This document shows, piece after piece, positions 2,052 to 6,659 of a stretch of 22,045 nucleotides of DNA. Within the stretch, counting starts at the first letter, position 1; every line of letters starts with the position of its first letter. The position numbers and the translations under genes were made by a program. The notes below the pieces were generated by a model that was not told the origin of the DNA, ran no database searches, and saw only the letters and a program-made list of their open reading frames with translations. The stretch is from IMG/VR virus record IMGVR_UViG_3300037963_000349, positions 1 through 22,045 of that record, one strand, 5' to 3'. The DNA comes from a virus.

Positions 2052-2785
2052 AATTCCATTAACAAATTTATAGGTAATTTTCCGTTATTCAAAACGACCG
2101 CACACCCTATCGCGGGTTTTTTTCCTGCTTTAGCATATGCCATTGCATAGCTTTCATGATCAATTCCACAACCAACTTGCATACCAAATACTCTAAATTT
2201 TTGCCCCACATAATGCTCACAATAACTTTGCACATGGAGATGCCCCTGTACAGTATTCATCATATCTGCCCTACATTTTGTTCTAGCAGTACCACCCTCA
2301 CCATGTATGTATTGAACATTGTCTTTAACATATCTTTCTATAAAGTTCCATTTTGGCACTTCTAAGACATCTTTATAGCTTTTAATCCATTTACTAGGAA
2401 TAGATGATGTTTGAGCCTTCCGTGCTACCATTCTATCATGGTTGCCCAAAATTACAGTAGCTTTAGGAAATGCTTTGTACCAACGTGAAATTCTTTTTAT
2501 TGCATACTCTAATTCATCAGCTCCACCCATTCCATCAGCAGATGTTTCGTGATAACTTGCATAGTGATTATCTATGACATCGCCAATAAAAACGACTTCT
2601 GTGCAGTCAAATTCATCATATTTAGATATACAAAATTGTAAGTATTTATCAAGTGAAAAGGGTTCGTGAAGGTCGCCAATAACTAGAACATTATTATATC
2701 CTTCACCATTATTTTTGCGACTAGCTTTTATTAAGTCATATTCTGACTCAGTAAGTCTAGGTCGGTATGGTCTTAAATTATCTAT
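2048..2785 (-). CDS. Calcineurin-like metallophosphoesterase with a non-canonical start
   Basis: All five metallophosphoesterase motifs are present if the frame is read from 2785: GDLH (37-40), GDVID (68-72), GNHDR (114-118), H161 in IHGEGG, and GHLH (181-184). The first in-frame ATG is at 2530, inside motif II, and would delete two metal-binding motifs. The open frame extends upstream through a family-typical N-terminus (RPYRPRLTESEYDLI) but contains no ATG, GTG, TTG or CTG. The only start-like codon is ATA at 2785-2783, overlapping the holin TAG. The length from there is 245 aa, normal for these phage enzymes. Metal-dependent phosphodiester or phosphomonoester hydrolysis is expected; the substrate is unknown. 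It could instead be a damaged gene or be translated by a frameshift from the holin. Confidence 0.8.
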   Translation of the reverse strand: MDNLRPYRPRLTESEYDLIKASRKNNGEGYNNVLVIGDLHEPFSLDKYLQFCISKYDEFDCTEVVFIGDVIDNHYASYHETSADGMGGADELEYAIKRISRWYKAFPKATVILGNHDRMVARKAQTSSIPSKWIKSYKDVLEVPKWNFIERYVKDNVQYIHGEGGTARTKCRADMMNTVQGHLHVQSYCEHYVGQKFRVFGMQVGCGIDHESYAMAYAKAGKKPAIGCAVVLNNGKLPINLLMEL

Positions 2786-3165
2786 TTTTTCTTTATTTTT
2801 TCTAAACCTCTGCTACCAAAGTATGCTCCAATCGTTGTGATCAAACATATTTCTAACAGGGCAACCCACCGTTCCTCTACATTAAAATTAATTGTACCAC
2901 TATCAATAAACACTAATAATACTGTTGATACTATTAGAAATGCTAATGTTAATGGTCTGATATTTGCAGGTAACCAACCTGCTTTTGCATCAGCTTCCCA
3001 ACGCCTTGTAATTTGTTCTTGTGCATTAGCTTCAGCTTTAGCCACAATTTCTTTCAAGTTAGCCTTTAATTGCATACGTTCTTCATCAGTCGTAACAACA
3101 TTATCAACAATGTTACTAACAGATTTCATAAAATCACCACCTAGTATTTTGCCTAATATCTTCAT
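2782..3165 (-). CDS. Holin, 3TM gene-transfer-agent-release type
   Basis: A 127-aa protein with a charged amphipathic N-terminal half (Glu/Lys/Ala-rich, residues 14-55), then the signature WEADAKAGWLPANIRPLTLAF followed by a hydrophobic span (about 72-88) and a second span (about 101-118), ending in GLEKIKKK. The 'W..ADA..gW....iRP' motif just before the first membrane segment is characteristic of the GTA-type holin family. The basic tail suits a cytoplasmic C-terminus. An internal ATG at codon 13 (MKSVSNIV) could give a shorter isoform, as in dual-start holins. Its ATG overlaps the endolysin stop, so lysis genes are coupled. Confidence 0.8.
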   Translation of the reverse strand: MKILGKILGGDFMKSVSNIVDNVVTTDEERMQLKANLKEIVAKAEANAQEQITRRWEADAKAGWLPANIRPLTLAFLIVSTVLLVFIDSGTINFNVEERWVALLEICLITTIGAYFGSRGLEKIKKK

Positions 3166-3698
3166 AATGATTTGTATTCTATTAAAGGTCTATATTTAGT
3201 TTTGTTGTTTTCGTCTTTGTAAGCAACTAAAACCTGCCTTCTATTATCGTTTACTTTCCAACTAATGTGAATCCAAGCAGGGTAATCTGTGTCTTTGTTT
3301 ACTGTTGGTGGCGGTGTTCCAAACTCTAAAATACATTGGTCAAAATCTAAATCTAAGTCTATAAGTGCTTTATATATTTTAAGATTATCCATTTTACCAC
3401 GCTTAACAAATTGTAAATCTACTGCTTCACAACGACAATGCTGAGAACGTGCAACATAATTACCTTTCTCATCTATTTTAAAACTTCCCCCTATTGCTTT
3501 ATTTAATTCTGGAGACCTATAGCCACTCGTTATTCTTAGTGGAGCTGATAAACGGTCACGTATCGGCTGCAAAAGTTCGGTGGCTAATAAGGTCAATTTC
3601 CAGATTCCTTCCTTGTCGGGGGTATTATCAATGCCTAAGCGTAAAGCTGTATTGCTTCTTGTAAATTCTTGTAAAAAAAATGATTTGGATAACTTCAT
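3162..3698 (-). CDS. Endolysin, M15-family peptidase
   Basis: A 178-aa protein with the M15 zinc-peptidase layout: TSGYRSPELNKAIGG (57-71), SQHCRCEAVDL with His87 and Asp94 as zinc ligands, and WIHIS with His144 as the third ligand; a Glu upstream (around 125) may be the catalytic base. Such enzymes cut peptide cross-links in peptidoglycan. There is no signal peptide, so release depends on a holin, which is encoded immediately downstream with an ATGA overlap. The gene upstream also overlaps by ATGA. Length is typical of the single-domain phage form with no separate wall-binding domain. Confidence 0.85.
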   Translation of the reverse strand: MKLSKSFFLQEFTRSNTALRLGIDNTPDKEGIWKLTLLATELLQPIRDRLSAPLRITSGYRSPELNKAIGGSFKIDEKGNYVARSQHCRCEAVDLQFVKRGKMDNLKIYKALIDLDLDFDQCILEFGTPPPTVNKDTDYPAWIHISWKVNDNRRQVLVAYKDENNKTKYRPLIEYKSL

Positions 3699-4030
3699 TC
3701 AAATTTTGCTAAATAAACCTTGTCTATTGCATCTTGTAAATCATCAATAGATATATCTAGTTCCATCATTATATTTGCTTCATACCTTGCAACTTCTACA
3801 TTGTTATCAAATACAATTACTGTAGGCACAGCTAATATATTGTGCTTTTCTTGTTCCTCAGGATTGTGACATATAACAACATTTGCTTTTTCACAATCTT
3901 TCAAATCAGAAATGCTATAATTATTTTCTGAGTTCCAATCACTATTGTAATGCACTACCTTTACTTGACCATTACAAGAACCAACACAAAAAAAGAATAG
4001 TCCTAGTATTATGTATGGTAAATTATTCAT
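3695..4030 (-). CDS. Exported thioredoxin-fold lipoprotein lacking the CxxC cysteines
   Basis: A 111-aa protein. Residues 4-18 form a hydrophobic signal, and V-G-S-C (16-19) is an acceptable lipobox with Cys19 lipidated. The mature part has a thioredoxin pattern: strand KVVHYNSDWNSEN (24-36), strand NVVICHN, then VPTVIVFDN (68-76) with the conserved cis-Pro at 69, strand VEVARYEA and a final helix. The position of the WCxxC active site reads W32-N-S-E-N, with both cysteines replaced by Asn, so redox activity is unlikely. It sits between a one-TM coiled-coil protein and the endolysin, so an outer-membrane role in lysis (o-spanin-like) is possible. Fold call is inference from pattern. Confidence 0.6.
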   Translation of the reverse strand: MNNLPYIILGLFFFCVGSCNGQVKVVHYNSDWNSENNYSISDLKDCEKANVVICHNPEEQEKHNILAVPTVIVFDNNVEVARYEANIMMELDISIDDLQDAIDKVYLAKFE

Positions 4031-4299
4031 TAGTTAATCTCATCTATTTTTCCCCTCAAATACTTCATATCTTCTTTAATTTCTTGCACATCTTCCTGTG
4101 TTGATAATATAGAAGCACGTATCAATTTGTCCTTCAGTTCAAATTCCTTTTCACTAATAGGCATTTCAGGTAATGTCTTTGCAACTTCTACTTCTGCCAT
4201 CAACGTAAAATATGTAGCAGATAATGATATTACAAAACCAATTATCATTATAATAGTTTTTAAGTCAAGAGTAAATTCTGAAGATTCGTTTATTTTCAT
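4030..4299 (-). CDS. One-TM coiled-coil membrane protein, possible i-spanin
   Basis: I chose the ATG at 4299 (MKINESSEF), which overlaps the upstream TGA, over the TTG at 4308; this gives 89 aa. Topology: short cytoplasmic N-terminus, one hydrophobic span (about 13-34, TIIMIIGFVISLSATYF), then a soluble helical segment with coiled-coil spacing ending EDMKYLRGKIDEIN. One TM segment followed by a periplasmic coiled coil, encoded directly before a lipoprotein and an endolysin, is the arrangement of an inner-membrane spanin paired with an outer-membrane lipoprotein. It could equally be an accessory lysis or membrane protein; no family motif is visible. Confidence 0.55.
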   Translation of the reverse strand: MKINESSEFTLDLKTIIMIIGFVISLSATYFTLMAEVEVAKTLPEMPISEKEFELKDKLIRASILSTQEDVQEIKEDMKYLRGKIDEIN

Positions 4300-4532
4300 T
4301 TCATACAAGATTTATCACATTTTTTACCTGAAAACTTTTCTATCCCACTAATACCAAAACAACCTAAAACCACGTAAACAAAGCTGTCGTAAACAAATTC
4401 ATTGATTACTAGGTCTTTTCCAATCCACCCTGTGAGTAAATCAGCAATCATTATTAAACACATTATTAAGAAAGCTACAAATCCAATTATAGCTTTTTCA
4501 TTCCAAGCATTGTTATCTTTAAATATATCCAT
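4296..4532 (-). CDS. Two-TM holin-like protein
   Basis: A 78-aa protein: hydrophilic start (MDIFKDNNAWNEKA), hydrophobic span (about 15-36, IIGFVAFLIMCLIMIADLLTG), short loop with WIGKD, second span (about 46-63) and a Cys/Lys-rich tail (KFSGKKCDKSCMK). Size, two spans and a basic tail fit a small holin or antiholin. It lies at the start of the lysis block, coupled both ways by start/stop overlaps. With the 3TM-type holin at 2782-3165, the phage would have two holin candidates, possibly a holin/antiholin pair. Confidence 0.6.
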   Translation of the reverse strand: MDIFKDNNAWNEKAIIGFVAFLIMCLIMIADLLTGWIGKDLVINEFVYDSFVYVVLGCFGISGIEKFSGKKCDKSCMK

Positions 4533-5095
4533 TATAATTTATATTTTATTAAACCATTTTCTATGTAAATTCCTTCAGGTCTTTTTATAACCTTGCCATT
4601 AAGATCATAAAGCAATCCTGTATTTTTTGACTTGTTTATCACTTCTTGCATACCACTATTACAAGGTAGTCCTGTTGCACAATCAACATATTCTGTAATA
4701 ATGATTTCTTGAAACTCCACAATAGTGTCTGTTAGATATTCTGTGATGTATTCTGTTTCAATTATTGTTTCAACAATAGTATCTGTTTGTGTTATTATTT
4801 CAATGACAGGTATTTCTACAAATACTGTGTCGCATGACTCATTATATAAACCACAATCTTCTAATGTTGTTGGAACGGCATTTGCTTCATCCGAACCATC
4901 GACACAATCATCCCAGCCATCATTAAGATACAATAAGCCATTAAGACCATTAGGAACACAACCATTAGGACTATACTGAGTCCAATTAGACTCATCATCT
5001 CCACAATAAAAGCCACCTTGTTCCACACATAACTCGCAATTTGTTTGACTAAAAGCATATCCACATATTAAAAATAAAAACAATAATTTTCTCAT
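4532..5095 (-). CDS. Exported Cys-rich protein with LDLa-like repeat and possible T9SS-type C-terminus
   Basis: A 187-aa protein with a signal peptide cleaved after ...CGYAFSQ (residue 17). Residues 20-81 are Cys-rich and end in NDGWDDCVDGSDE (58-70), the calcium-binding signature of LDL-receptor class A modules, with the usual CDG cysteine replaced by Asn. Residues 87-140 are a Thr/Ile/Glu repeat (DTIVETIIETEYITEY style) that should form extended beta structure. The last 28 residues (LLYDLNGKVIKRPEGIYIEN...) resemble the end of type IX secretion C-terminal domains of Bacteroidota. It may be displayed on the host surface or be part of the virion. The T9SS link is inference. Confidence 0.6.
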   Translation of the reverse strand: MRKLLFLFLICGYAFSQTNCELCVEQGGFYCGDDESNWTQYSPNGCVPNGLNGLLYLNDGWDDCVDGSDEANAVPTTLEDCGLYNESCDTVFVEIPVIEIITQTDTIVETIIETEYITEYLTDTIVEFQEIIITEYVDCATGLPCNSGMQEVINKSKNTGLLYDLNGKVIKRPEGIYIENGLIKYKL

Positions 5096-5097
5096 AA

Positions 5098-6117
5098 CTA
5101 AAAGATTAAATAATTAAACCCAAACTTGCACTCATAAACAGGCTTATTCCAATACTTCAAATACGTTCCTTCAGCAAATAATCCTAAGTGCTTTGTAATT
5201 CTAACGCCTAAAACACTCCCTAAGTCCATTTCTAGCTGTTTTAAGCCACTTTCTTCATAGTCGAAAGAGTATTCGTCCAAACCATAGTGAAAAGGCATTA
5301 GATTCGCCCAAATGTGAATCCAATAATTTGGATTGTATTTATAGTATGATAATCCTAGCACTAAACTAAGTTCTTTTTGCATACCTAATTTATCTAATTC
5401 TTGTTCATTGTAATCAGCTATTGCTTGACCAAAATAGTGTTTGTAAAATTCATCATTAGATGTTGCAAGTAATTCATCATTTTTAAACCAATGCCATCTT
5501 CCATTTACAAACTCATTTGAATAGCCAAATTCTTCTGCTAATTGTCTAAATGATTGTTCTCCTGGTGTCCAAAGGTCATCAATAGGTGTAATGCCATAAG
5601 GGTTATGTTGTCTAAAAACACCACCAAAAGTAAAGTCAAAACCACCCTTAGTAAGTCTTAATCTAGCATCTAGTGAATTGTATCTAAGATCAACACGTTG
5701 TCTATCTGTATATTGTGCTTTTATTACAAATCTTTTACCTAAATATCGTAACCAATAATTCTGCTCATTAAGTGTGTCACCACGACTACGTATATATGAA
5801 TAATTAACAAGATACTCAAAACCAACAGCATTGGAAATAGTAACATTTTCTGCAACATTGTCCTCTGTTCCATAATACCAACTTTTTATTTTTTGTTCAT
5901 AACCAAAACGAGCCACTTTTCTGATTCCTACAGTTAGGTTAAAATCATAAGGATTAACTTGTGTAACATCTTCGTACCCTTTATCTACAGAGATATAGTC
6001 TTGATTTTCAACCATACTTGTATTCATATTCATAGATGTATAAATAGTAGAATACTTAAAAAAATCTATTTGCCCAAAAGACAAAAACGGAATTAATAAA
6101 AATAAATACTTTATCAT
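5098..6117 (-). CDS. Exported beta-barrel outer-membrane-like protein
   Basis: A 339-aa protein with a flavobacterial signal peptide (MIKYLFLLIPFLSFGQ, cleavage near 16). The mature part alternates polar and aromatic residues in strand-length segments (for example FEYLVNYSYI, FVIKAQYTDR, FDFTFGGVFR) and ends in KFGFNYLIF, a terminal aromatic typical of outer-membrane barrels recognised by the BAM machinery. No phage structural signature is visible. Carriage of a host-type outer-membrane protein inside a late string suggests surface modification, such as superinfection exclusion or receptor masking. It could instead be a virion protein that acquired a signal peptide. It overlaps the upstream gene by ATGA. 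Confidence 0.6.
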   Translation of the reverse strand: MIKYLFLLIPFLSFGQIDFFKYSTIYTSMNMNTSMVENQDYISVDKGYEDVTQVNPYDFNLTVGIRKVARFGYEQKIKSWYYGTEDNVAENVTISNAVGFEYLVNYSYIRSRGDTLNEQNYWLRYLGKRFVIKAQYTDRQRVDLRYNSLDARLRLTKGGFDFTFGGVFRQHNPYGITPIDDLWTPGEQSFRQLAEEFGYSNEFVNGRWHWFKNDELLATSNDEFYKHYFGQAIADYNEQELDKLGMQKELSLVLGLSYYKYNPNYWIHIWANLMPFHYGLDEYSFDYEESGLKQLEMDLGSVLGVRITKHLGLFAEGTYLKYWNKPVYECKFGFNYLIF

Positions 6118-6659
6118 AGCACTTTAGTATAAGAATAAGTTACATAAACATCACAAGACCAGCCACCATTAAAATTGTCACTTGAATACATCAAAAAAGG
6201 TTTGTTTAAAATTGATTGTGTGCAAGTTCCATTTGATGTAAAACTTCCTGTTAAAACCATAGTAATATCTTTTGTGCCACCATTCATCATATCTCTTACC
6301 GTATTCCAATGGGCAGTAGTATCATCAGCTTTATAGCCTAAATACAAGTTTTCACTAGAAGATTCTGTTGCAGCCGCATAAGTACATAGTATAGTTACAT
6401 TATATACAGTTATCATATAACCACTCAAAGCCCCTACTAAAGTTTTAAACGTACCTGCTGCTCCTGTAGCCCTCATAGCTTGTAACTCTGCATTAGATAC
6501 AGATATTTTATCTGTTTGTATTAAGTATTTTGTGTCAAACTTTTTGCTAGTTCCCTCTGCTGAACCAGTACTATCGTTTACATCTACCACCATAAATAAA
6601 TCCCCTGAACCTAATTGTTCTTCAAGTGCTGTTTTATCGGTTAACCTTTGTCCTGCCAT
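6114..6659 (-). CDS. Small virion appendage-type protein
   Basis: A 181-aa protein. The N-terminal third (LTDKTALEEQLGSGDLFMVV then DVNDSTGSAEGTSKKFDTKYL) has the pattern found at the N-terminus of many Bacteroidota phage fibre or appendage proteins, where 'GD...vvDv.DtT...GTSKk' recurs. The rest is beta-rich with many Thr, Ser, Asn and Tyr, which fits a compact receptor- or virion-surface domain, ending DVYVTYSYTKVL. It follows the connector gene and precedes the beta-barrel protein with an ATGA overlap. Role inferred from pattern and context. Confidence 0.5.
   Translation of the reverse strand: MAGQRLTDKTALEEQLGSGDLFMVVDVNDSTGSAEGTSKKFDTKYLIQTDKISVSNAELQAMRATGAAGTFKTLVGALSGYMITVYNVTILCTYAAATESSSENLYLGYKADDTTAHWNTVRDMMNGGTKDITMVLTGSFTSNGTCTQSILNKPFLMYSSDNFNGGWSCDVYVTYSYTKVL

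Follow-up and report, generated by a model that had tools for sequence, protein, structure and literature searches.

Genomic context of the predicted cargo gene

The window, that is, the whole stretch of DNA analyzed here, is a 22,045-base IMG/VR virus record with coding almost entirely on the minus strand. Tail genes and genes for a prohead-protease-like protein (PF14550), a portal (PF04860) and a small appendage-like protein all precede a gene encoding a beta-barrel, and the order after the appendage-like gene is barrel, cargo protein, transmembrane (TM) protein, TM/coil protein, thioredoxin-like secreted protein, M15 endolysin (phrog_894, E 6e-29) and holin (phrog_3427, E 6e-22). The open reading frame (ORF) of the cargo protein, placed at 4532-5095 by an earlier note made from the letters alone, proved exact, encoding 187 amino acids on the minus strand. 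The same note had described a neighboring barrel gene and an overlap with a lysis block, and both descriptions hold: the ORF starts 2 bases past the stop of the barrel gene (5098-6117), and base 4532 is the single base that it has in common with the TM protein gene opening the lysis block. The features of the locus are the following:

2782..4308, minus strand: lysis block, with TM/coil protein, thioredoxin-like secreted protein, M15 endolysin and holin
4296..4532, minus strand: small TM protein that opens the lysis block and shares one base with the cargo gene; found in 19/80 loci
4532..5095, minus strand: predicted type IX secretion system (T9SS) cargo protein, whole ORF, 187 aa; 121 distinct relatives
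4535..4654, minus strand: predicted short T9SS CTD, residues 148-187, with S/GM-QE cleavage motif, motif B YDLNGK, motif D GIYI and basic end E
4661..4684, minus strand: DCATGLPC knob, residues 138-145, two invariant Cys just ahead of the predicted cleavage site
4688..4831, minus strand: beta-rich DTI/EYI stalk, about residues 89-136
4853..5038, minus strand: Cys-rich LDLa-like head, residues 20-81, invariant Cys 20, 23, 31, 46, 64 and 81
4886..4930, minus strand: LDLa-type calcium-site motif Y-x-N-D-G-W-x-D-C-x-D-G-S-D-E, residues 56-70
5048..5095, minus strand: probable signal peptide, residues 1-16 (...YAFS/Q), no lipobox; family inspected by eye
5098..6117, minus strand: partner, a secreted outer-membrane beta-barrel of 339 aa predicted with AF2, type I (no EF-hand loop)

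Several other genes of this region were characterized. The TM/coil protein (4030-4308, minus strand) presents an N-terminal TM segment and a predicted coil in an inner-spanin-like layout, and weakly matches the holin/antiholin phrog_10340. The thioredoxin-fold secreted protein (3695-4030, minus strand), present at 72/80 loci, contains a cis-Pro-like VPT, and a relative of it matches PF00085 at 6e-7; a redox role for this neighbor was considered and rejected, with CXXC found in 0/70 relatives. The probable tail appendage protein encoded at 6114-6659 (minus strand), in which the N- and C-termini are both conserved and the middle is highly variable across loci, is a candidate receptor-binding protein. 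In related loci, a GH16 glycoside hydrolase gene (PF00722, E 8e-16) lies between the barrel and cargo genes of a 63-kb phage contig (L161:6056-6763), and an ORF adjoining the cargo gene (L184:6980-7408) encodes a nuclease-like sequence (DRVIDGDTIDA...IDTPE), which we take to resemble staphylococcal nuclease. Basic Cys-rich peptides of 27-28 aa (MKKLICRIIKFLTFGNFCINCCNKCDK) are encoded directly 3' of the barrel in L258, L287, L296 and other loci, at the position of the cargo gene or of the small TM protein gene.

A phage protein family with constant module order

A scan of IMG/VR identified at least 94 contigs encoding the cargo protein, of which 80 were kept, and the head was found to be encoded in 225 contigs, whereas tblastn returned no match to the cargo protein among 50,697 deposited phage records, and none to the cargo protein or the barrels in cultured phages. 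The initial description of the motif as rare in phages hence holds for deposited genomes, but not for IMG/VR. Relatives from the cargo scan, together with loci from the barrel scan, yielded 121 distinct sequences, a lower bound for the family, in which the modules always follow one another in the same order: signal peptide, Cys-rich head, beta-rich stalk, DCxTGxPC knob and a tail of 40-42 aa. By inspection, 120/121 members present an A/S-x-Q-like end of the signal peptide, and a lipobox is present in 0/121. The distance from the head to DCxTGxPC ranges across the family from 27 to 187 aa, reflecting variation in stalk length, and the knob appears in the context EYxDCxTGLPC, with the same knob identified in the cellular proteins L081, L082 and L083.

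The N-terminal head resembles LDLa modules

The calcium cage of LDLa modules is composed of three Asp and one Glu at spacing 4/6/1, together with backbone oxygens. In the cargo protein, where NDGWDDCVDGSDE corresponds to residues 58-70, the equivalent residues D59, D63, D69 and E70 (spacing 4/6/1) are invariant in 121/121 members, as is C64, and an aromatic residue occupies position -3 from D59 in all 121 (Y in 85, W in 36). D66 is less strict (113/121), and the position of the fourth LDLa cysteine is never Cys (N in 117, A in 3 and G in 1 of the 121). The recurrence of the motif in 121 distinct relatives indicates that it is not a product of chance. The near-complete LDLa motif initially reported is complete and invariant in its ligand pattern, but the module is without Cys4 and falls under the Pfam cut-off. 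In the profile check that had been proposed along with it, PF00057 matched 27/40 members below threshold, with a best score of 23.9 bits (L068 head) against a gathering threshold of 24.1, and 14.8 for the window member.

The best solved-structure (PDB) matches of the family profile are VLDLR modules (E 0.03), and all the best matches are LDLa-type; the AF2 model of the cargo protein is poor (pLDDT 51 overall and about 45-60 in the head). The phage head shares with LDLa (PF00057) the four acidic calcium ligands, the aromatic residue at -3, F-x-C, DCxDGSDE and five of six cysteines in the same order, and departs from it in the replacement of Cys4, an extra N-terminal Cys, a longer and variable loop ahead of the aromatic residue and the score under the Pfam cut-off. 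We hence designate the head as a putative LDLa-like variant with five of six cysteines, rather than a certified LDLa domain, and calcium binding by it appears reasonably probable. Such a likeness could also have arisen by convergence, in which case the head would be a small bacterial surface domain, rich in disulfides and equipped with a DxxDC...DE metal loop, that has no kinship with animal LDLa. The absence of Cys4 throughout the family, the extra Cys in front, the slightly insufficient Pfam score and the recovery of head relatives only from Flavobacteriales (4/395 genomes, and 0/296 in a phylum-wide draw) are all in keeping with this scenario, but the ligand spacing, the aromatic residue, F-x-C and the five-cysteine order fit LDLa, as do the structural matches, and we regard convergence as a serious contender that falls somewhat short of even chances. 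No relevant report of LDLa proteins in phages emerged from a search of the literature.

The C-terminal tail fits a short T9SS sorting signal

The cargo protein ends in YDLNGKVIKRPEGIYIENGLIKYKL, the motifs of which are kept in 121/121 members: motif B (YNLxG), motif D (GxYI, with a relaxed first position) and the basic end E are each present in all 121, with constant spacing from B to D. In 119/121 members a cleavage-like site, x-[G/A/S/N]-[I/M/L]-x-[E/Q], follows straight after the PC knob and defines a tail of 40-42 aa; it constitutes a relaxed form of PT/GI in which the Pro is not found at the same place. Short CTDs are expected to form a three-stranded sheet that binds PorV; in the AF2 model the tail reaches a pLDDT of about 80 and contains strands at 175-179 and 182-186, preceded by short bridges. 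The canonical T9SS sorting models (PF18962 and TIGR04183), also part of the proposed check, did not match in 40 members or in the window record. The tail resembles canonical type A CTDs in its C-terminal position and in the B/D-like motifs YDxxGxxI and GxYI, but it lacks the YPNP strand, has about half the length and obtains a profile-profile probability of 15-25% in hhalign against long CTDs, compared to 98.8% against Bacteroidaceae tails.

A closer counterpart is provided by Prevotella intermedia, for which Ye et al. (2025) described 48 'short CTDs' of 43-55 aa, 40-51 in the seed set (PMC11969387). These present cleavage at PT/GI (Ile at +2), a motif B with Tyr and Gly, a gap of 1-6 aa between B and D, a motif D formed by GxY and then Ile, and a basic motif E with a terminal basic residue; five cleavage sites were determined and C-terminal glycosylation was observed (PMC11969387). 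The phage family matches this cargo in its tag of roughly 40-55 aa, x-T/G-I site, motifs B (Y..xG) and D (GxYI) and basic E, and in the combination of an N-terminal signal peptide with diverse ectodomains, including LRR (PMC11969387). It differs in being phage-encoded and predicted from sequence, in the occurrence of the tag on Flavobacteriales-type proteins, and in the DCxTGLPC knob and DTI stalk that precede the tail. The earlier proposal of a T9SS-like C-terminus is thus upheld by the fit to the P. intermedia short CTD and by the association with T9SS documented below, and fails with respect to canonical models.

A test profile built from Prevotella/Bacteroidaceae tails alone, whose likeness to the phage tail in motif D is selected because they were first fetched with that tail as query, matched every one of the 124 family ORFs at E<=1e-4, including 121 at <=1e-6; at E 0.01 there was no match among the 2130 remaining phage ORFs or among 2254 reversed sequences. 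In 61 Bacteroidaceae genomes, short tails and SprA were both present in 36 and both absent in 21, with 2 genomes presenting only the tail and 2 only SprA (Fisher p 5e-12); this co-occurrence is confounded by phylogeny (Prevotella versus Bacteroides), but its direction is that predicted for a T9SS signal. The SprA-positive Bacteroidaceae genomes encode 950 short tails, with up to 91 proteins per genome.

Those of the Bacteroidaceae short tails that were tested are unmatched in Pfam and NCBIfam, and a curated model for short T9SS-type tails seems to be absent. Prevotella MA2016 (G005) encodes SprA and 21 short tails, with a single sub-threshold PF18962 match. The draft genome G666 contains 72 short tails without a SprA match, a discordance attributable either to incomplete assembly or to T9SS-independent use of the tail.

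The cargo gene is associated with one barrel subtype

The AF2 model of the partner protein (pLDDT 75, pTM 0.70) shows a closed antiparallel barrel, and the protein carries a signal peptide. Structure searches returned the OmpG, CymA and TamA barrels (Z 10.6-11.4), which are generic matches, and a single close viral homologue was found in BFVD (A0A516LKJ4, TM 0.8, 30% identity). PorV and PorP/SprF were not among these generic structural matches, an absence that is uninformative.

In the cargo-first scan, the cargo gene was preceded by the barrel gene at 80/80 loci, and the barrel-first scan detected the cargo gene in 75/78 loci, the other three ending at a contig edge. A portal-anchored scan provided 29 informative contigs, 24 with the barrel and 16 with the cargo gene; all 16 encode both, 8 encode only the barrel and 5 neither, and no contig has cargo without barrel. 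The notion of an obligate pair was rejected on account of the 8/24 barrels without cargo.

The eight cargo-less barrels belong to a second subtype with an inserted loop of canonical EF-hand type (e.g. FYFIDANGNGYLDRLEQSFYRW). Across 155 informative distinct barrels, 125 without a strict EF loop are accompanied by cargo, and the 30 cargo-less barrels are all of the second subtype, with a strict EF-hand loop in 20 and a degenerate one (D-x-N-x-N-x-x-x-D-R-x-E) in most others. Cargo is hence found with 0/30 barrels of the second subtype versus 125/125 of the other, and no looped barrel among the 155 is accompanied by it. The barrel with an EF-hand-type loop (e.g. DANGNGYLDRLE) was recorded at L258:9352-10374 and at 29 more cargo-less loci.

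This alternation suggests that a predicted calcium module works with the barrel, but it is suggestive rather than probative, because it may stem from one ancient split. A broader formulation is that the whole clade would possess a two-part calcium-dependent surface device, composed of the barrel and an LDLa-like partner exported by T9SS, that seals the infected cell against further phage; one barrel subtype would receive its calcium module in trans from the LDLa cargo, and the other would have it in cis as the EF-hand-like loop. We regard this formulation as distinctly unlikely.

Cellular relatives and the probable host

Searches of bacterial genome contigs with a full-length family profile yielded no confirmed relative, whereas cellular relatives were recovered by tail-only and head-only searches. 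The Flavobacteriales secreted proteins L081, L082, L083 and L197 end in the same stalk-knob-tail arrangement, for which strong matches were obtained in 4/395 genomes, one in each; L083 is an LRR protein from a single-cell genome and L081 contains GCTDPxACNY repeats. The same head was identified in the cellular proteins L233, L240 and L241, and more distantly in L242. These head-sharing proteins are large and adhesin-like, with GCTDPxACNY repeats, and L240 combines the head with a canonical long CTD at its C-terminus. The occurrence of the same head and, separately, of the same stalk and tail on Flavobacteriales proteins indicates that the phage gene joins two host-type surface modules.

Given these modules in common with Flavobacteriales surface proteins, the host of the phages is probably a member of the Bacteroidota, and the places from which records of related bacteria come suggest that these phages are probably marine. 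Among the genomes that encode the cellular relatives, SprA is present in G001-G003, with 36 canonical CTD proteins in G001 and 25 in G003. P. intermedia has been called the sole species for which short CTDs have been reported alongside long ones (PMC11969387), but G001 and G003 also appear to carry both, and short CTDs probably occur outside Prevotella as well.

Discussion

The analysis reported here supports the first reading of this ORF in substance, with a correction on each of its LDLa and T9SS counts. Considered together, the conserved tail motifs, the specific profile match and the association with SprA make surface placement by the host T9SS a well supported prediction, and the protein itself is likely to be a T9SS surface cargo. 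The best explanation of the locus as a whole, to which we assign a fair degree of probability, is that of a late-gene T9SS cargo coating the infected cell.

According to this model, the signal peptide would direct the protein through Sec into the periplasm, and the host translocon and the PorV shuttle would recognize the short CTD of 40-42 aa and bring the protein across the outer membrane, a step for which the motifs, the profile match and the T9SS co-occurrence provide the basis. By analogy with P. intermedia cargo, the PorU sortase would cut before residue 148, at the x/G-I-like site, and the new C-terminus, just past the Cys139-Cys145 knob, would be linked to surface polysaccharide. The LDLa-like head, predicted to fold around one Ca2+, would then be shown on its beta-rich stalk beside the phage barrel, and the surface of the dying cell would be changed or masked in such a way as to prevent adsorption of both sister virions and new progeny.

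The position of the cargo gene beside the lysis genes makes its late expression probable. This, the absence of the gene from some relatives with the same lysis block and the reported links in Flavobacterium between gliding/T9SS and phage susceptibility (PMC6867891) lead us to favor surface masking or superinfection exclusion, that is, an anti-readsorption function, although we advance this role only tentatively.

Its main rival is a T9SS-exported adhesin or aggregation factor, in which the head, instead of hindering phage adsorption, would make infected cells adhere to one another or attach them to particles or prey polymers, and thereby aid phage spread or host nutrition. The adhesin-like nature of the large, repeat-containing cellular proteins that share the head speaks for such a function, as does a stalk length as variable (27-187 aa) as that of displayed adhesins, but expression beside lysis genes would leave little time for adhesion to be of benefit, and we consider it unlikely. 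If the tail were merely CTD-like, the protein could instead stay in the periplasm or join virions; a tail of only about 40 aa that canonical T9SS models do not match, and a gene coming after that of the probable tail appendage protein (6114-6659), would agree with this. The presence of all four CTD motifs, which keep a fixed spacing and are each found in 121/121 or 119/121 members, the specificity of a tail profile that tracks SprA and the use of the same tail by cellular proteins of several architectures argue against it, and make a periplasmic or virion-associated protein quite improbable.

The third reading to be weighed places the cargo protein and the barrel in lysis, where they would form a non-canonical spanin that disrupts the outer membrane alongside holin and endolysin. 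The conserved order of barrel, cargo, TM protein, endolysin and holin, the signal peptides of both proteins and a position that implies late expression can all be cited in its favor. Spanins, however, need a lipobox or a TM anchor, and the family has neither a lipobox (0/121) nor a TM segment after the signal peptide, while the TM/coil protein at 4030-4308 is a better fit to an inner spanin. Furthermore, the gene is missing from close relatives with the same lysis block (8 with only the barrel and 5 with neither gene), which indicates that lysis does not need the cargo, and the conserved CTD would be left unexplained. Participation in lysis is very improbable.

In the literature that we found, the use of T9SS by phages has been noted for one genome, that of Cryophage, whose authors propose superinfection exclusion or strain competition for its T9SS cargo (PMC7468147). 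Both systems feature phage gene products bearing T9SS sorting domains. In Cryophage, the sorting domains are of type A and are borne by an endoglucanase, a GH39 protein and a PA14 protein encoded in variable islands (PMC7468147), whereas the phages analyzed here encode a single conserved family that combines an LDLa-like head with a short CTD and always has the barrel as its neighbor. A cargo family with a short CTD, its conserved pairing with a barrel and the alternation between LDLa and EF-hand are what is new in this system.

The cargo gene is conserved in a large group of uncultured phages and carries a minimal sorting signal that standard annotation overlooks, so that phage-encoded T9SS cargo may be widely overlooked as well. 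With a cargo tied to a dedicated phage barrel, the system outlines a testable route by which a tailed phage would rewrite the outer surface of a diderm host.
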